64,000 bases of DNA, taken from the NCBI RefSeq assembly GCF_016650695.1, contig NZ_JAEKFH010000003.1, forward strand, positions 702,001-766,000, written 5' to 3'. Position 1 is the first letter of the stretch; every line of letters begins with the position of its first letter. Source of the stretch: Pseudomonas sp. TH41 (GTDB taxonomy: Bacteria; Pseudomonadota; Gammaproteobacteria; Pseudomonadales; Pseudomonadaceae). The notes under the pieces were generated by a model. It searched no databases, was not told the origin of the DNA, and saw only the letters and a list, made by a program, of their open reading frames with translations. Positions 53,819-62,672 of the stretch are shown here, one piece after another. Made by a program: the position numbers and the translations under genes.

Positions 53819-54397
53819 TTATCTTGCTGGATGGTTGCGCACAAATTGTTGAAGCTGTGGATAGAACAACCTGAAGTCCTCGCTCAACGGTTCATACAAC
53901 ACTCGCAACTCCTGCATCGCTGCCGCCAGTTCTTCGGGTCGGGTCAACCGACGAGAAATCCCTCGCAACACCTGCTCCAGCACCTCGAATTCCCGATAAG
54001 AACCCAACCAGTCGTTGGCCACCATATGCGGCGCGATGCGCGCCAAGCGTTCCGGCAGTTGCGGTTCGCGGGTCAGCACGCGGTACACGTGCGAGGTGAA
54101 CAGCTCCAGCGGTTGTTCGGCGTACAGTTTCCAGTCCCGCGCCAGGCAGTGATCGAAAAACACGTCGAGCACGATCCCGGCGTAACGCCGGCGGGTCAGG
54201 GAGAACCGCGACAGCGCCACGTCCACCAACGGGTGGCGATCGGTGAATACGTCGATGCTGCGATGCAGCTGGATGGCCGCTTCAATCTCCGGATCAAACT
54301 GCCCTTGCAGCCGCCCTTTGACGAAATCGCCGTAAAGACTGCCGAGCAATTGACCGGGGCGCTGGCCACCGAGGTGAAGATGAGCGAGATAGTTCAT
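53819..54397 (-). CDS. acpH: Acyl carrier protein phosphodiesterase
   Basis: A 192-residue AcpH-family protein (MNYLAHLHLGGQRPGQLLGS, QLHRSIDVFTDRHP) with the metal-binding His/Asp pattern of the family. It removes the phosphopantetheine prosthetic group from ACP. It is monocistronic and diverges from the arsR-type gene. Confidence 0.88.
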   Translation of the reverse strand: MNYLAHLHLGGQRPGQLLGSLYGDFVKGRLQGQFDPEIEAAIQLHRSIDVFTDRHPLVDVALSRFSLTRRRYAGIVLDVFFDHCLARDWKLYAEQPLELFTSHVYRVLTREPQLPERLARIAPHMVANDWLGSYREFEVLEQVLRGISRRLTRPEELAAAMQELRVLYEPLSEDFRLFYPQLQQFVRNHPAR

Positions 54398-54439: not shown

Positions 54440-54548
54440 ATATCGTTATAACCCGATATACCGATTTACGCGGTCCTCAGAGCAAAATCATATTGGAATA
54501 TCGCGAAATACCGATTTAAAGTTCGCTGCATCGCGATATAGCGTTTTA
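54440..54548. promoter_or_regulatory. Repeat operator array upstream of the arsR-type gene
   Basis: Three near-identical 15-base elements: CGATATACCGATTTA (54454-54468), CGAAATACCGATTTA (54504-54518) and CGATATAGCGTTTTA (54534-54548), spaced 50 and 30 bases, so all face the same side of the helix. They overlap dyads: ATATCG-N8-CGATAT (54440-54459), the 18-base imperfect palindrome GGAATATCGCGAAATACC (54495-54512) and ATCGCGAT (54530-54537). This is most simply the autoregulatory operator of the adjacent ArsR-family protein. Confidence 0.75.
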
Positions 54549-54568: not shown

Positions 54569-54871
54569 ATGAACCTCGACCTCGACGAAATAATAAAAGC
54601 CCTGGCACACCCAGTACGGCGAGAAATCCTGCACTGGCTCAAAGACCCGACCGTCGAATTCCCCGACCAGTCCCACAGCAACGAGCACGGCGTCTGCGCC
54701 GGGCAAATTGATCAACGTTGCGGTTTGTCGCAGTCCACCGTGTCTGCGCATCTGGCCACCCTGCAGCGCGCCGGCCTGATCAGCAGCCGCAAAGTCGGCC
54801 AATGGCACTTTTTCAAACGCAACGAGGAAACCATCCAGGCGTTCCTCCGCACCTTCAGCAAAGAGCTCTGA
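54569..54871 (+). CDS. ArsR-family transcriptional regulator
   Basis: A 100-residue winged-helix protein: ALAHPVRREILHWLKDP is the ArsR N-terminal helix, and CGLSQSTVSAHLATLQRAGL the recognition helix with RKVGQWHFFKRN as the wing. There is no CxC metal site of the ELCVC type; the only cysteines are VCAGQIDQRCG, so thiol or electrophile sensing is possible. It heads an operon with an MFS exporter (34-base gap) and an Old Yellow Enzyme reductase, which suggests a reactive-compound response. Confidence 0.87.
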   Translation: MNLDLDEIIKALAHPVRREILHWLKDPTVEFPDQSHSNEHGVCAGQIDQRCGLSQSTVSAHLATLQRAGLISSRKVGQWHFFKRNEETIQAFLRTFSKEL

Positions 54872-54905: not shown

Positions 54906-56072
54906 ATGCCCCTCTCGCTCCTCATTCTGGCCTTGAGCGCCTTCGCCATCGGCACCACCGAGTTCGTCATCATGGGCTTGCTGCCGGACGTGGCGGCCGA
55001 CCTCGGTGTGTCGATTCCCGGCGCCGGCTGGCTGGTGACCGGTTACGCCCTGGGCGTGGCTATCGGTGCGCCTTTCATGGCACTGGCCACCGCCCGACTG
55101 CCGCGTAAGGCCGCTTTGGTAGCGTTGATGGGGATTTTCATCATCGGCAATCTGCTCTGCGCACTGGCCACTGACTACAACGTGCTGATGTTTGCCCGTG
55201 TGGTGACCGCCCTCTGCCACGGTGCGTTCTTCGGCATCGGTTCGGTGGTGGCAGCAGGCCTGGTACCGGCTAACAAACGCGCTTCGGCCGTGGCCCTGAT
55301 GTTCACCGGCCTGACCCTGGCCAATGTCCTCGGCGTGCCGTTGGGCACTGCACTCGGTCAGGAAGCCGGCTGGCGTTCGACTTTCTGGGCGGTCACCGTG
55401 ATCGGCGTGATTGCGCTGATCGGCCTGATCCGCTTCCTGCCGGCCAAGCGCGATGAAGAGAAACTCGACATGCGCGCCGAACTGGCTGCGCTCAAAGGGG
55501 CCGGGATCTGGCTGTCCCTGAGCATGACCGCCCTGTTCGCGGCCTCGGTGTTCACCCTGTTCACTTATGTCGCGCCGTTGCTGGGCGAAGTCACCGGTGT
55601 CTCGCCTCGTGGTGTGACCTGGACCTTGATGCTCATCGGCCTGGGCCTGACGGTCGGCAATATCATCGGCGGCAAACTGGCTGACAAAGGCATGGCCGCG
55701 ACGTTGATCGGCGTCTTCATTTCGATGGCGGTGATTTCCACCGTGCTGACCTGGACCAGCGTCGCGCTGATTCCAACCGAAATCACCCTGTTCCTCTGGG
55801 CCACCGCGTGCTTTGCCGCCGTGCCTGCCCTGCAAGTGAACGTGGTGACCTTCGGCAAGGCTGCACCGAACCTGGTGTCGACCCTGAACATCGGCGCATT
55901 CAACATCGGCAACGCACTGGGCGCCTGGGTCGGCGGAAGCGTCATCGCCCACGGCTTCGGCCTGACCCGCGTGCCTCTCGCGGCCGCCGTACTGGCGGTA
56001 CTCGCCTTGCTGATCACCCTGATTACTTTCCGCCAGAGCGGCAACCCCGAACTGGCCCCTGCTACTCACTAA
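54906..56072 (+). CDS. MFS exporter, DHA1 family (AraJ/YdhP-like)
   Basis: A 388-residue major facilitator with twelve membrane helices. The start MPLSLLILALSAFAIGTTEF, the first-loop motif ALATARLPRKAALV and GWRSTFWAVTVIG (motif C region) fit drug-efflux DHA1 proteins such as AraJ and YdhP. It lies between an ArsR regulator and nemA in one operon and likely exports the compound or product that the operon deals with. Confidence 0.88.
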   Translation: MPLSLLILALSAFAIGTTEFVIMGLLPDVAADLGVSIPGAGWLVTGYALGVAIGAPFMALATARLPRKAALVALMGIFIIGNLLCALATDYNVLMFARVVTALCHGAFFGIGSVVAAGLVPANKRASAVALMFTGLTLANVLGVPLGTALGQEAGWRSTFWAVTVIGVIALIGLIRFLPAKRDEEKLDMRAELAALKGAGIWLSLSMTALFAASVFTLFTYVAPLLGEVTGVSPRGVTWTLMLIGLGLTVGNIIGGKLADKGMAATLIGVFISMAVISTVLTWTSVALIPTEITLFLWATACFAAVPALQVNVVTFGKAAPNLVSTLNIGAFNIGNALGAWVGGSVIAHGFGLTRVPLAAAVLAVLALLITLITFRQSGNPELAPATH

Positions 56073-56092: not shown

Positions 56093-57142
56093 ATGACGAC
56101 TATTTTCGATCCGATCAAACTGGGCGACCTCGAGTTGGCCAACCGCATCATCATGGCGCCGCTGACCCGCTGCCGCGCCGACGAAGGCCGTGTGCCGAAC
56201 GCGCTGATGGCCGAGTACTACGTACAACGCGCCTCGGCCGGCCTGATCCTCAGCGAGGCCACTTCGGTCACGCCAATGGGCGTCGGCTACCCGGACACCC
56301 CGGGCATCTGGTCCAACGATCAGGTGCGTGGCTGGGCCAATGTGACCAAAGCGATCCACGGCGCGGGCGGTAAGATTTTCCTGCAACTGTGGCACGTCGG
56401 GCGTATTTCCCACGGGTCGTATCTGGGCGGTGAAGCGCCGGTCGCACCGAGCGCCATTCAGCCGGAAGGTCATGTCAGCCTGGTTCGCCCACTGGCCGAC
56501 TTCCCCACCCCGCGTGCTCTGGAAACCGCTGAAATCGCCGACATCGTCGACGCGTACCGCACCGGTGCCGAGAACGCCAAGGCAGCCGGTTTCGACGGTG
56601 TGGAAATCCACGGTGCCAACGGTTACCTGCTCGACCAGTTCCTGCAAAGCAGCACCAACCAGCGCACCGACCACTACGGTGGCTCCCTGGAAAACCGTGC
56701 GCGCCTGTTGCTGGAAGTGACCGATGCAGCGATCGAAGTCTGGGGCGCGGGCCGCGTGGGTGTGCACCTGTCACCGCGTGCCGATCTCCATGACATGGGC
56801 GACGACAACCTGTCCGAGACCTTTACCTATGTCGCTCGCGAGCTGGGCAAACGTGGCATCGCGTTCATCTGCTCTCGCGAGAGAGAAGCTGGCGACAGCC
56901 TCGGTCCTCAAATGAAGGACGCGTTCGGCGGCCCCTACATCATCAACGAGCGTTTCACCAAGGACAGCGCCAATGCCTGGCTAGCCAGCGGCAAGGCCGA
57001 TGCGGTCGCCTTCGGCGTGCCGTTCATTGCCAACCCGGACTTGCCTGCACGGTTGAAGGCCGATGCACCGCTGAATGAGGCGCGTCCGGAATTGTTTTAT
57101 GCCAAGGGCCCGGTTGGTTACATCGATTATCCGATGATGTAA
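56093..57142 (+). CDS. nemA: N-ethylmaleimide reductase (Old Yellow Enzyme)
   Basis: A 349-residue FMN-dependent ene-reductase. IIMAPLTRCRADEGRVPNAL is the flavin-binding start, FLQLWHVGRISHGSYL follows, VEIHGANGYLLDQFLQSSTN has the substrate-binding His/Asn pair, and TDHYGGSLENRARLLLEVTD is the family signature. It reduces electrophilic alkenes, maleimides and nitro compounds. The start at 56093 is set by homology. It is the last gene of the arsR-MFS-nemA operon. Confidence 0.93.
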   Translation: MTTIFDPIKLGDLELANRIIMAPLTRCRADEGRVPNALMAEYYVQRASAGLILSEATSVTPMGVGYPDTPGIWSNDQVRGWANVTKAIHGAGGKIFLQLWHVGRISHGSYLGGEAPVAPSAIQPEGHVSLVRPLADFPTPRALETAEIADIVDAYRTGAENAKAAGFDGVEIHGANGYLLDQFLQSSTNQRTDHYGGSLENRARLLLEVTDAAIEVWGAGRVGVHLSPRADLHDMGDDNLSETFTYVARELGKRGIAFICSREREAGDSLGPQMKDAFGGPYIINERFTKDSANAWLASGKADAVAFGVPFIANPDLPARLKADAPLNEARPELFYAKGPVGYIDYPMM

Positions 57143-57463: not shown

Positions 57464-58096
57464 TCATTTGCGCAGACTGGGGCTCAAGCGCAGCATATCC
57501 AACCCTGTATCAACCCAACGCTCTGCTTCGATGTGCAGGTGAAAACTGTCGGGAACCAGCAGCCACTGATACAAGATGCCATCGATGTAAGCATGCAGGC
57601 TGATGGCCGCGCGCTCCGTGTCGAGGTTTTCCGGCAATTGCCCCCGATTCACTGCATTACGCAGGGCCAGGCCGATCCGCACATTGCAGTCGAGGCTGGC
57701 CACCACACGCTGCTGGCGCAGATCGCACATTTCATCGGTGAATTCGCATTTATGGAAAAAAATCTCATTGATGCGTCGTGTTTTCGGGTCCAGGGCAACT
57801 TGATGAAACAAATGAATCAGCAGCTTGCGCATGCAGCCCAGTGGATCGAGCTCTGCTTCGCTTTCACTGGCCCTGGCCATTTCTTCCAGCGGCTCGTGCA
57901 ACGTATCGAGCATGGCCTGTACCAGGTCCGCCTTGTTGCTGAAATGCCAGTAGATCGCCCCGCGAGTGACGCCAGCCAGGGTCGCGATGTCCGCCAGTGT
58001 CGTGCGCGCTACGCCCCGTTCAAAAAAGGCCTTTTCTGCCGCTTCGAGTATCTGGCTACGGGTTTCTTGAGCTTCCTCTTTGGTACGACGGACCAT
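57464..58096 (-). CDS. emhR: TetR-family repressor of the RND efflux operon (EmhR/TtgR)
   Basis: A 210-residue TetR repressor: [20 protein letters not shown] opens the DNA-binding domain, and [20 protein letters not shown] contains the helix-turn-helix; the C-terminal ligand domain ([20 protein letters not shown] onward) resembles TtgR/AcrR. In P. putida TtgR releases its operator on binding antibiotics or flavonoids. It is divergent from emhABC across a 265-base region that holds a near-identical operator. Confidence 0.93.
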
Positions 58097-58242
58097 GGCA
58101 GTAAAACCTCAATCAGGATGCTTCAGCGATGTCTGAATATCCGCTGAATAAAAGTGGGGCGAGCGCTCTTGGGTATCGTCCCCGGCCTACAATTCGAACC
58201 TTCGAACGGCGTCTGTAACGATGTGGATACGTGGTCAAGGTG

Positions 58243-58270
58243 TTTACAAACAACCATGAACGTAAGTATA
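58243..58270. promoter_or_regulatory. TtgR/EmhR-type operator
   Basis: The stretch starting TTTACAAACAACCATGAACG and ending GTAAGTATA agrees, with one change that I can recall, with the P. putida ttgR-ttgA operator (TTTACAAACAACCATGAATG and following). It lies 92 bases upstream of the emhA start. Confidence 0.85.
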
Positions 58271-58361
58271 TTCATTAGCAAGCTACTTATCCACTCATCA
58301 CCCATTTTTTACCTTTCCACATTTCTTGAGCGTTTCTTGCGCGCCTGACCCGAGGATTTTC

Positions 58362-59519
58362 ATGCAATTCAAGCCAGCTGTTACCGCTCTGGTCACCGCC
58401 GTCGCCCTGGCATCACTGCTAAGCGGCTGCAAAAAGGAAGAGGCGGCACCGGCCGCGCCACCTCCTCAGGTCGGCGTTGTTACTTTGCAACCTCAATCCT
58501 TCACCCTGACCTCCGAACTGCCAGGCCGCACCAGCGCGTACCGCATCGCCGAAGTTCGCCCGCAGGTCAATGGCATCATTCTCAAGCGTCTGTTCAAGGA
58601 AGGCGGCGACGTCAAGCTCGGCCAGCAGCTCTATCAAATCGATTCGTCGGTCTATGACGCGACGCTGAAAAGCGCTGAAGCCAACCTGCAACAGACCAGG
58701 TCGATCTCGGATCGCTACAAGCAACTGGTCAACGAGCAAGCCGTCAGCCGTCAGGAATACGACACTGCCGTGGCCAACCGCATGCAATCGGAAGCCGCGC
58801 TGCAAAGTGCCCAGATCAATGTGCGCTACACCAAGGTTTACGCCCCGCTGACGGGTCGTATCGGCCGTTCCAATGTGACCGAAGGCGCACTGGTCACCAG
58901 CGGTCAAGCGGACCCGATGGCGGTGATCCAGCAACTCGACCCAATCTACGTCGACGTCACCCAGTCGTCCGTCGAGCTGCTTGAGCTGCGCCGTGAACTG
59001 GAAAGCGGTCGCCTGCAAAAATCCGGTGACAACGCGGCGGCGGTCAAGCTGACCCTGGAAGATGGCAGCCAGTACAAGCAGGACGGCAAGCTCGAGTTCT
59101 CCGAAGTGTCGGTTGACCAGACCACTGGTTCCGTCACCCTGCGCGCCGTGTTCCCGAACCCTGACCACACGCTGTTGCCGGGCATGTTCGTTCATGCGCA
59201 GTTGCAGGCCGGTGTGAACGCCGCGGCGATTCTGGCCCCACAACAAGGCGTGACTCGCGACCTCAAAGGCACGCCGACCGCATTGGTCGTCGGCCCGGAC
59301 AACAAGGTTGAACTGCGTCAGCTCAAGGCCAGTCGCACCGTCGGCAGCCAATGGCTGATCGAAGACGGTCTGAAGGCCGGCGATCGCCTGATCACCGAAG
59401 GCCTGCAATTCGTCAAACCTGGCGTTGAAGTCAAGGCCACTGAAGCCACTAACGTTGGCGCAAAGAACCCGGCACCCGCACAGGCAGCTAACAAGGCTTC
59501 CAGCGGAAAAGGGGAGTAA
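58362..59519 (+). CDS. emhA: RND efflux periplasmic adaptor
   Basis: A 385-residue membrane-fusion protein with a lipoprotein signal (MQFKPAVTALVTAVALASLL, Cys 24 in LLSGCKKEE). The lipoyl and hairpin domains are YRIAEVRPQVNGIILKRLFK and the coiled-coil SAEANLQQTRSISDRYKQLV; the beta-barrel is seen as LLPGMFVHAQLQAGV. It links the pump EmhB to the outer-membrane channel. CGAGGATTTTC precedes the ATG. It starts the emhABC operon (three bases to emhB). Confidence 0.93.
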   Translation: MQFKPAVTALVTAVALASLLSGCKKEEAAPAAPPPQVGVVTLQPQSFTLTSELPGRTSAYRIAEVRPQVNGIILKRLFKEGGDVKLGQQLYQIDSSVYDATLKSAEANLQQTRSISDRYKQLVNEQAVSRQEYDTAVANRMQSEAALQSAQINVRYTKVYAPLTGRIGRSNVTEGALVTSGQADPMAVIQQLDPIYVDVTQSSVELLELRRELESGRLQKSGDNAAAVKLTLEDGSQYKQDGKLEFSEVSVDQTTGSVTLRAVFPNPDHTLLPGMFVHAQLQAGVNAAAILAPQQGVTRDLKGTPTALVVGPDNKVELRQLKASRTVGSQWLIEDGLKAGDRLITEGLQFVKPGVEVKATEATNVGAKNPAPAQAANKASSGKGE

Positions 59520-59522
59520 ACC

Positions 59523-62500
59523 ATGTCGAGATTTTTTATCGACCGTCCGATTTTCGCCTGGGTAATTGCCCTGGTGATCATGTTGGTCGGGGCTCTATCG
59601 ATCCTCAAACTCCCGATCAACCAATACCCGAGCATTGCGCCTCCGGCCATTGCGATCCAGGTGACTTACCCAGGCGCGTCCGCACAAACCGTGCAGGACA
59701 CCGTGGTGCAGGTCATCGAGCAACAGCTCAACGGTATCGACAACCTGCGTTATGTCTCGTCGGAAAGTAACTCCGACGGCAGCATGACCATTACCGCGAC
59801 CTTCGAGCAGGGCACCAACTCCGATACCGCGCAGGTTCAGGTCCAGAACAAACTGAACCTGGCCACCCCGCTGCTGCCGCAAGAAGTACAGCAACAGGGC
59901 ATCCGCGTGACCAAGGCAGTGAAAAACTTCCTGTTGGTCATCGGTGTGGTCTCGCAAGATGGCAGCATGAACCGCGATGACCTGGCCAATTACATCGTAT
60001 CCAACATGCAGGACCCGATTTCGCGGACCGCCGGTGTCGGTGACTTCCAGGTCTTCGGTGCCCAGTACGCGATGCGGATCTGGCTCGACCCGGCCAAGTT
60101 GAACAACTTCAACCTGACCCCGGTGGACGTTAAAACCGCCGTTGCCGCGCAGAACGTGCAGATTTCTTCCGGCCAACTGGGCGGCCTGCCGGCACTGCCC
60201 GGCCAGCAACTGAACGCCACCATCATTGGCAAGACCCGTTTGCAGACGGCGGAACAGTTCAAGGAAATCCTGCTCAAGGTCAACAAGGACGGCTCTCAGG
60301 TTCGCCTCAAAGACGTGGCTGATGTTGGCCTCGGTGGTGAGAACTACGCCATCAATGCCCAGTTCAACGGTGCACCGGCCTCCGGTCTCGCGGTCAAACT
60401 GGCCAACGGGGCCAACGCCCTTGACACTGCCAAAGCCCTGCGCAAGACCATCGACACGCTCAAGCCGTTCTTCCCGCAAGGGATGGAAGTAGTATTCCCG
60501 TACGACACCACGCCAGTGGTGACCGAGTCGATCAAGGGTGTGGTTGAAACCCTGGTCGAAGCGATCGTGCTGGTGTTCCTGGTGATGTTCCTGTTCCTGC
60601 AAAACTTCCGCGCCACCGTGATCACCACGATGACGGTGCCGGTGGTGTTGCTGGGTACGTTCGGGATCCTCGCGGCATTCGGCTTCAGCATCAACACCCT
60701 GACCATGTTCGGGATGGTGTTGGCCATCGGCTTGCTGGTGGACGATGCCATCGTCGTCGTGGAAAACGTCGAACGCGTCATGAGCGAAGAAGGCCTGTCA
60801 CCCAAGGAGGCCACCAAGAAATCCATGGGGCAGATCCAGGGTGCACTGGTCGGTATTGCACTGGTTCTGTCGGCCGTACTGCTGCCGATGGCATTCTTCA
60901 GCGGTTCCACCGGGGTGATCTACAAACAGTTCTCGATCACCATCGTTTCGGCCATGGCCCTGTCCGTAATGGTCGCGCTGATCTTCACCCCGGCGCTCTG
61001 CGCCACCATGCTCAAGGCGATTCCGAAAGGCGAACACGGCACGCCGAAACGCGGCTTCTTCGGCTGGTTCAACCGCGGCTTCGATCGTAGTGTCAAAAGC
61101 TACGAGCGCGGTGTCGGCAACATGCTCGCGAACAAGGCCCCGTATCTGCTGGCCTACGTGATCATCCTGGTCGGCATGATCTGGTTGTTCACCCGCATCC
61201 CCACAGCGTTCCTTCCGGAAGAAGACCAAGGCGTACTGTTCGCTCAGGTGCAGACACCGGCAGGTTCCACCGCCCAACGCACGCAAGTGGTGGTCGACCA
61301 GATGCGGTCCTACTTGCTGGAGAAAGAATCCGGCGCAGTGGCTTCGGTCTTTACCGTGAACGGCTTCAACTTCGCCGGTCGCGGTCAAAGTTCCGGTTTG
61401 GCGTTCATCATGCTCAAGCCGTGGCATGAACGGGATGCGGAAAACAGCGTATTCAAACTCGCCGCCCGCGCCCAGCAGCACTTTTTCACCTTTCGTGACG
61501 CCATGGTGTTTGCCTTCGCACCACCGGCGGTACTGGAATTGGGTAACGCCACCGGCTTCGATGTGTTCCTGCAAGACCGCGCCGGTATCGGTCACGACAA
61601 GTTGATGGAGGCACGAAACCAGTTCCTCGGTATGGCCGCGCAAAGCAAGATGCTCTATCAGGTGCGTCCGAACGGTCTGAACGACGAACCGCAATATCAG
61701 CTGGAAATCGATGACGAGAAGGCCAGTGCCCTGGGCATTACTATCACCGACATCAACAGCACCCTGTCGATTGCCCTGGGCAGTAGCTACGTCAACGACT
61801 TCATCGACCGCGGTCGGGTGAAAAAGGTGTACGTGCAAGGTCAGCCTGGCTCGCGCATGAGTCCGGAAGACATCAAGAAGTGGTACGTGCGTAATGCCCA
61901 GGGAACCATGGTGCCGTTCTCTGCCTTCGCCAAGGGTCAATGGATCTACGGTGCGCCGAAGCTGTCGCGTTACAACGGTGTAGAAGCGATGGAAATCCTC
62001 GGGGCCCCGGCGCCCGGCTATTCCACCGGTGAAGCCATGGCCGAAGTCGAAGCCTTGGCTCAGAAACTGCCGCCCGGTGTCGGTATCTCCTGGACCGGTC
62101 TGTCCTACGAGGAACGTCTGTCCGGCTCGCAAGCGCCAGCGCTGTACGCGTTGTCGCTGCTGATGGTGTTCCTGTGTCTGGCGGCGTTGTACGAAAGCTG
62201 GTCGATTCCGATCGCGGTCATGCTGGTGGTGCCACTGGGGATTATCGGTGCGCTGATGGCCACCAGCCTGCGCGGCCTGTCGAACGACGTGTATTTCCAG
62301 GTGGGATTGCTGACGACCATCGGGCTGGCGGCGAAAAACGCCATTTTGATTGTCGAATTCGCTAAGGAACTGCACGAGCAAGGACGTAGTCTGCGCGATG
62401 CCGCCATCGAAGCCTGCCGCATGCGTTTGCGCCCCATCATCATGACCTCGCTCGCGTTTGTCCTCGGTGTGGTACCACTGGCTATTTCCACGGGTGCAGG

Positions 62501-62672
62501 TTCGGGTAGCCAACATGCGATCGGTACCGGGGTTATTGGCGGTATGCTCACCGCCACGGTCCTGGCGATCTTCTGGGTCCCACTGTTCTTCGTCACCGTG
62601 TCGTCCATCGGTCAGCGCAAAATCGTCGACCCGGATGACGCTACTGAAACTCCTAAAGAGGCTGGCCAATGA
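59523..62672 (+). CDS. emhB: RND efflux transporter
   Basis: A 1049-residue resistance-nodulation-division pump of the HAE1 class with twelve membrane helices. [20 protein letters not shown] opens it; the proton-relay aspartates lie in [38 protein letters not shown] begins the second half; [20 protein letters not shown] is in the C-terminal half. Length and motifs match EmhB/TtgB/MexB, exporters of hydrophobic antibiotics, aromatic hydrocarbons and dyes. Its stop overlaps the emhC start as ATGA. Confidence 0.95.

Follow-up and report, generated by a model that had tools for sequence, protein, structure and literature searches.

The window, by which we mean the whole 64-kb stretch of DNA analysed, carries an operon of three genes encoding, in this order, an ArsR-family repressor, an MFS drug-efflux-type transporter and a xenobiotic reductase of the old yellow enzyme family, with an acpH-like gene as divergent neighbour (Table 1). 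Matches to Pfam and NCBI models bear out the order arsR, MFS gene, ene-reductase gene that the initial annotation had placed downstream of a set of repeats; its further statement that this is not a described system was mistaken. Judged by its sequence, the operon is the orthologue of pyeR-pyeM-xenB (PA4354-PA4355-PA4356), already described in P. aeruginosa, and hence not an unknown system. According to PMC7950407, the products of pyeRM-xenB are an ArsR repressor, by which the operon is autorepressed, an MFS transporter and a xenobiotic reductase, and the operon is regulated by MexT; a MexT regulon table in PMC12607905 includes PA4354, PA4355 and xenB. That order (ArsR, MFS, xenobiotic reductase B) is matched here, and the order acpH / pyeR / MFS / xenB, again with acpH divergent, is also found in genome G414, whose PyeR is 71% identical. 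Among 25 genomes of the genus of G442, G414 comes closest to P. aeruginosa in its azurin sequence (98%, with the others at 89% or less) and is presumably that species itself or a near sister. A candidate identity of pyeM as one of the NEM-inducible MFS genes of PMC7835679 was rejected, as the genes named there are PA1262 and PA1282. Downstream of the operon, the stretch 57464-62672 holds a TetR/AcrR-type repressor gene (57464-58096, minus strand) and, on the opposite strand, ORFs with RND-like translations, one resembling a membrane-fusion protein and the other a pump.

Table 1. Features of the pyeR-pyeM-xenB locus, in window coordinates
Feature	Position	Strand	Basis or occurrence
acpH-like gene (acyl carrier protein phosphodiesterase), divergent neighbour	53819..54397	-	Pfam ACP_PD E 3.5e-65
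Site 1, ATATCG-TTATAACC-CGATAT, perfect arms; candidate third operator, lineage-specific	54440..54459		138/187 loci
15-mer copy 1	54454..54468	+	exact match
TCGCGA-centred imperfect palindrome overlapping site 2, typical of site-1 lineage	54492..54515		80%
Likely -35, TTGGAA (4/6)	54493..54498	+	placed by position relative to distant relatives' promoters
Site 2, ATATCG-CGAAATAC-CGATTT, in likely promoter spacer	54498..54517		22-bp pair, 187/187 loci
15-mer copy 2	54504..54518	+	1 mismatch
Likely -10, TTTAAA (4/6), 16-bp spacer	54515..54520	+	placed by position relative to distant relatives' promoters
Site 3, AGTTCG-CTGCATCG-CGATAT, 22 bp downstream of site 2	54520..54539		22-bp pair, 187/187 loci
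Imperfect palindrome overlapping site 3	54524..54543		83%
15-mer copy 3	54534..54548	+	2 mismatches
pyeR, ArsR-family repressor, 100 aa, without ELCVC	54569..54871	+	HTH_20 E 9e-10; NF033788 68.1 bits (cut-off 55); AlphaFold ArsR fold
Cys43 codon, directly before helix 3	54695..54697	+	invariant in 187/187 orthologues; position by model
Cys51 codon, end of helix 3	54719..54721	+	Cys in 149/187; in 12/49 orthologues under 80% identity
pyeM, MFS drug-efflux-type transporter (Cmx/AraJ-like)	54906..56072	+	MFS_1 E 3.2e-42; NF033135 335.4 bits, under cut-off 400
xenB, xenobiotic reductase B, old yellow enzyme family	56093..57142	+	PDB 4ab4 'Xenobiotic reductase B' E 4.3e-209, residues 1-348

PyeR and its invariant cysteine

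The repressor lacks ELCVC and keeps two cysteines, as first annotated; these are residues 43 and 51, and in helix 3 GVCAGQI takes the place of ELCVC. No classical metal-binding motif is present in the sequence or in an alignment of 43, and its absence is also part of the description of PyeR, as are autorepression by direct binding and an effect on biofilm. The AlphaFold model (pLDDT 93, pTM 0.85, 43 sequences) has the ArsR fold, with helix 3 at residues 44-51, and its nearest solved folds are ArsR, CadC, HlyU, SrnR and NolR, the best Foldseek match being ArsR 6j05 (E 1.9e-6). PyeR passes the model NF033788, 'metalloregulator ArsR/SmtB family', but this is a broad, fold-level model, and its name says nothing of metal sensing. 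The protein thus shares its fold with the classical ArsR/SmtB sensors (ArsR, CadC, SmtB, CzrA) and differs from them in lacking ELCVC, with one cysteine where their first one sits; we take Cys43 to align, by eye, with the first cysteine of ELCVC. Thr or Ala replaces Cys51 in 36 of the 49 orthologues under 80% identity, and a sensor built on two cysteines is weakened for that reason. Cys43, by contrast, is also present in five further relatives (L230 and L232-L235).

What, then, might PyeR sense? Cys43 and the reductase partners suit a one-cysteine sensor of electrophiles or oxidants, which they would support rather than prove, and the original proposal of a sensor of electrophiles or quinones rather than of arsenic seems plausible on the same sequence features. 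An alternative, which we regard as a serious possibility though the less probable one, is that the signal for PyeR is an oxidant (HOCl, for instance) or a ligand bound non-covalently, and not an electrophile acting via Cys43. In P. aeruginosa, according to PMC7950407, the operon is induced by HOCl and deletion of the whole operon renders the bacterium HOCl-sensitive; moreover, because pyeRM-xenB goes up with HOCl and down with HOSCN, apparently via RclR, induction need not pass through the cysteine chemistry of PyeR at all. In the model, moreover, Cys43 immediately precedes helix 3 and may be structural. Against this reading stand the neighbouring enzymes, namely the ene-reductase in Pseudomonadaceae and beside the PyeR-like genes of L233 and L234, and the zinc-type oxidoreductase beside those of L232 and L235, all of which suit enones and quinones. 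Among the matches listed for the open-access literature, no electrophile test on pyeR was found.

Several described systems invite comparison. BigR, SqrR and YgaV combine the ArsR fold with cysteine-based sensing of thiol persulfides through a two-cysteine arrangement; this arrangement is absent from PyeR, which scores only 24.7 bits with the BigR model NF040642 (cut-off 155). NemR is a TetR-family protein and differs from PyeR, which has Pfam HTH_20/HTH_5 and no TetR_N, in both fold and operator. The logic of NemR-nemA in E. coli, a repressor coupled to an ene-reductase for electrophiles and HOCl, is nevertheless alike. PMC7950407 names this system too. Other Pseudomonas carry an ArsR gene adjoining xenA or the xenC/pnrA cluster, for which a role in the TNT response has been suggested (PMC9407559); these loci resemble the present one in having ArsR next to an old yellow enzyme gene, and differ in their reductases (XenA, XenC) and in belonging to another cluster.

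The 20-bp dyad upstream of pyeR

A total of 187 upstream regions were compared, made up of 110 loci (L021-L130), 57 loci (L136-L192) and 20 loci (L193-L212), the species of which overlap. The element conserved across the Pseudomonadaceae is a 20-bp dyad, ATATCG-N8-CGATAT, which is here put forward as the putative PyeR operator. Its three versions in the window (sites 1, 2 and 3) are centred at 54449.5, 54507.5 and 54529.5, so that the first spacing, of 58 bp, corresponds to 5.5 helical turns (opposite face) and the second, of 22 bp, to 2.1 turns (near the same face). Sites 2 and 3 taken as a pair show at most five mismatches over 24 arm positions in every one of the 187 promoters and at most two in 165 of them, a level of five being reached by none of 3740 mononucleotide shuffles (best 8) and reversed sequences coming down to six. 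After five of the 187 loci had been set aside for their misfit to the site-3 anchor, 25 diverged representatives were taken from the remaining 182; they have the conserved letters tATATCG..aa...cCGATaTA.agTTCGcccCAtc.CGATatac, that is, two 6-8-6 dyads 22 bp apart, in which site 3 reads agTTCGcccCAtc.CGATat. The work of Mac Aogain (2012) on P. aeruginosa PyeR is said to have described a palindromic PyeR site conserved among orthologues, and a palindromic site, the dyad above, precedes pyeR in all 187 loci. Two expectations of the initial annotation fared well: that the repeats, sought before orthologous operons, would recur there, as the element does in 187 of 187 promoters, and that they form an operator of the adjacent ArsR-type protein, which this conservation supports.

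Within the window's own 6.78-Mb genome, the exact dyad ATATCG-N8-CGATAT occurs once, at site 1. Six places match with at most one mismatch, two of them in the pyeR promoter, and at up to two mismatches the count is 104 against 44 for a reversed control; a half-site pattern at up to three mismatches showed no excess in the same genome (82 versus 77 for a control pattern). One half-site copy with a single mismatch (G000:C3:2048250-2048266, L003) lies just before a LysR-type gene that is divergent from an acyl-CoA dehydrogenase-like gene.

Site 1 and the MexT box

Site 1 differs from the other two in being confined to part of the family. In 138 of the 187 loci (107 distinct promoter sequences) a dyad with no more than two mismatches precedes site 2 at a distance of exactly 58 bp, 90 times in perfect form and 45 times with one mismatch, and none of the 187 has a dyad with up to one mismatch at any other upstream offset in the range 24-110 bp. 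(Closer to site 2, one MexT-type locus, L162, has a further one-mismatch dyad, 22 bp upstream.) The distance of 58 bp is kept more rigidly than the length of the leader, since the leader, counted up to the base that aligns with the start codon in the window, takes eight lengths between 23 and 30 across the 138 site-1 loci, and length differences that are not multiples of three represent real indels.

Boxes for MexT were sought with its nod box pattern, ATCA-N5-GTCGAT-N4-ACYAT. It agrees with the MexT consensus ATYA(N7)YGAT given in PMC11432991. In 30 of the 187 loci a nod box with no more than two mismatches starts 40-42 bp before the left end of site 2; the other 19 loci without site 1 divide into 11 that carry a box with three to four mismatches at the same place and eight that have neither element. 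Site 1 and the MexT box were never found together (0/187), and none of the 138 site-1 promoters, that of the window included, contains the box, the best fit having at least five mismatches everywhere. The box is a feature of how the P. aeruginosa operon is regulated and not of the regulator family. By eye, G414 combines an exact MexT box with the 22-bp dyad pair and has no site 1. Two exact MexT boxes (G000:C1:512135 and G000:C5:402410, i.e. L223 and L224) and one with a single mismatch occur in the window's own genome, none of them at pyeR, and the neighbours of the two exact ones do not look, by eye, like mexEF-oprN. In promoters that lack site 1, for example L136, L140 and L211, the interval from the MexT box to site 2 repeatedly contains a stretch similar to ctATCGgcgcaaaCGATc.

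The fluorescens/putida-type lineage, to which the window belongs, would accordingly differ from P. aeruginosa in having no MexT-type activator box and a third dyad at -58. While pyeR-pyeM-xenB itself is known, with operators that are here proposed from conservation, a lineage-specific third operator standing where other lineages have the MexT box appears to be new among the matches listed for the open-access literature. How often did this exchange occur? On a pyeR tree of 76 rows, the bootstrap of which is unsettled, site 1 versus MexT box takes one change if the loci with neither element are set aside, and site 1 versus all others takes two, with a weak dividing branch (47/90). Since a single change accounts for the first contrast, the mutual exclusivity probably records one historical switch and should not be counted as repeated evidence.

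The -35 hexamer may have changed along with the box. Its mean number of matches (of six) is 3.4 in 47 non-redundant site-1 loci and 3.6 in the eight loci with neither element, as against 2.3 in 26 MexT loci and likewise 2.3 in 10 weak-box loci; site 1 versus MexT plus weak gives a Mann-Whitney p of 2e-9, which is a plain contrast that leaves kinship out of account. The gap between the groups shrinks when the -35 is allowed to slide by 3 bp, and on the gene tree, whose supported branches yield only three independent pairs, no link with the MexT box emerged (median p 1). A better -35 where the MexT box is absent is therefore suggestive only.

Could site 1 belong to another regulator, for instance a LysR-type activator that took the place of MexT, or to the divergent acpH promoter? 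Seven of its eight inner bases (TTATAAC) are about as conserved within the site-1 lineage as the arms themselves, it sits upstream of the promoter as an activator box would, and its never co-occurring with the MexT box is in keeping with a replacement. However, its arms are identical to those of the dyad found before the PyeR-like genes of distant relatives, and it is the very place where the genome has its sole exact copy; we consider a foreign site 1 unlikely, if not negligibly so, and prefer to regard it as an additional site for PyeR.

Repeat geometry and a model of repression

The initial annotation had started from the 15-mer CGATATACCGATTTA and two near copies with one and two mismatches, 50 and 30 bp apart, and had read them as three directly repeated operators bound cooperatively on one face of the DNA. 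The copies are indeed present, as the sole matches at up to three mismatches in the window (0.42 expected), and since only one of 100 shuffles of the window gave three matches, they exceed chance. The claim that each overlaps a dyad was borne out in part, for copies 2 and 3, where the two imperfect palindromes lie. The geometry fared less well. With 10.5 bp to the helical turn, the intervals of 50 and 30 bp come to 4.76 and 2.86 turns, neither of them whole and hence not the same face; the 15-mers are the right-hand parts of larger dyads and not an operator unit of 15 bp (at site 2 the 15-mer is offset by 8 bp relative to the right arm of the conserved dyad); and cooperative binding on one face finds no support in dyad spacings that place the sites on opposite and near-same faces.

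A 30-mer palindrome centred on TCGCGA, built on the copies and tried as the unit, did reproduce the 50/30 spacing (in 133 of the 187 loci), but it failed in distant genera, and the dyad ATATCG-N8-CGATAT was adopted instead. In 22 diverged representatives outside the site-1 lineage, the arms of this dyad pair at 5.6 of six positions, whereas the inner part of the TCGCGA-centred unit pairs at 2.5 of six, a comparison that used places for site 2 found with the 6-8-6 search and so favours the dyad register; the consensus anchored on site 3 in the 25 representatives shows the same ATATCG/CGATAT arms at site 2. Within the site-1 lineage, site 2 could use either register, because it contains the TCGCGA palindrome in 134 of 138 loci (versus 7 of the 49 others), 128 of the 138 have CGATTT as its right arm, and in the three site-1 representatives pairing is equally good (5.0/6) in either register. 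Taken together, three 15-bp operators on one face are very improbable as an account of this promoter, and chance similarity of functionless AT-rich promoters, for which the single successful window shuffle might be invoked, is contradicted by the fixed 22- and 58-bp spacings in many diverged promoters and deserves practically no credence.

The reading that we consider very probable is that PyeR, bound at the dyads, represses its own operon by blocking RNA polymerase, with a sensing step at Cys43 and with site 1 as a lineage-specific addition. The orthology of the operon, the dyads, their fixed spacings, the exclusivity of site 1 and MexT box and the conservation of Cys43 are shown by the sequences; binding, the dimer, the promoter hexamers, the sensing step and the role of site 1 we infer. 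A generic consensus promoter scan detected no promoter in the pyeR upstream region, and the likely -35 and -10, both weak with four of six matches, are placed as in Table 1 because a dyad sits between promoter-like hexamers in three distant relatives. In these (L232, L233 and L234, from other families of the class and 43-46% identical) the dyad is a perfect ATATCG-N8-CGATAT that ends 25-30 bp ahead of the gene; the hexamers are, respectively, TTGATA, TTGACA and TTGACA on one side of it and TATAAT, TATAAT and TATAGT on the other. In the window, site 2 fills the likely -35/-10 spacer and site 3 follows directly downstream.

According to this autorepression model, PyeR, with its ArsR fold and no classical metal motif, would bind the 20-bp dyads as a dimer, and dimers placed side by side on sites 2 and 3, two turns apart, would exclude RNA polymerase; that two neighbouring dimers could shut out the polymerase follows from site 2 lying between the hexamers and site 3 lying 22 bp further on. 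A reactive compound, be it an enone, a quinone, a nitroaromatic or a reactive chlorine species, would then modify Cys43 and release PyeR, whereupon the pump and the ene-reductase could dispose of the compound. Site 1, 58 bp upstream of site 2, would probably serve as an extra PyeR site that tightens repression. The model offers a precise and testable candidate operator for PyeR and singles out one cysteine, and a third repressor site in one lineage versus a MexT box in others would provide a natural contrast for studying how a detoxification operon is handed over from one regulator to another.

Within the genus, 293 of 298 genomes have a PyeR relative at E <= 1e-10. At E <= 1e-15, relatives were found in 239 of 298 genomes of the family, covering 16 of 19 genera, and in five of 185 genomes of a class-wide sample, two of which, the window's own genome included, belong to this family. 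It is conceivable that a wider one-cysteine ArsR subfamily with an invariant Cys43, of which PyeR would be the member known best, is spread over several gammaproteobacterial families, that this subfamily guards ene- and quinone-type reductases through an ancestral 20-bp dyad in the -35/-10 spacer, and that in the fluorescens/putida lineage the operon has passed from joint control, with MexT activating and PyeR repressing it, to control by PyeR only, gaining a third operator and an improved -35. As a whole, these three propositions are offered tentatively, and we would sooner doubt than expect that all of them hold together. Paralogues of PyeR, about 43-57% identical, are frequent, with 17 of 38 genomes having at least two matches, although in G141 one gene is in two pieces. 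One paralogue, L235, has no perfect dyad upstream, and it is adjoined by its zinc-type oxidoreductase.
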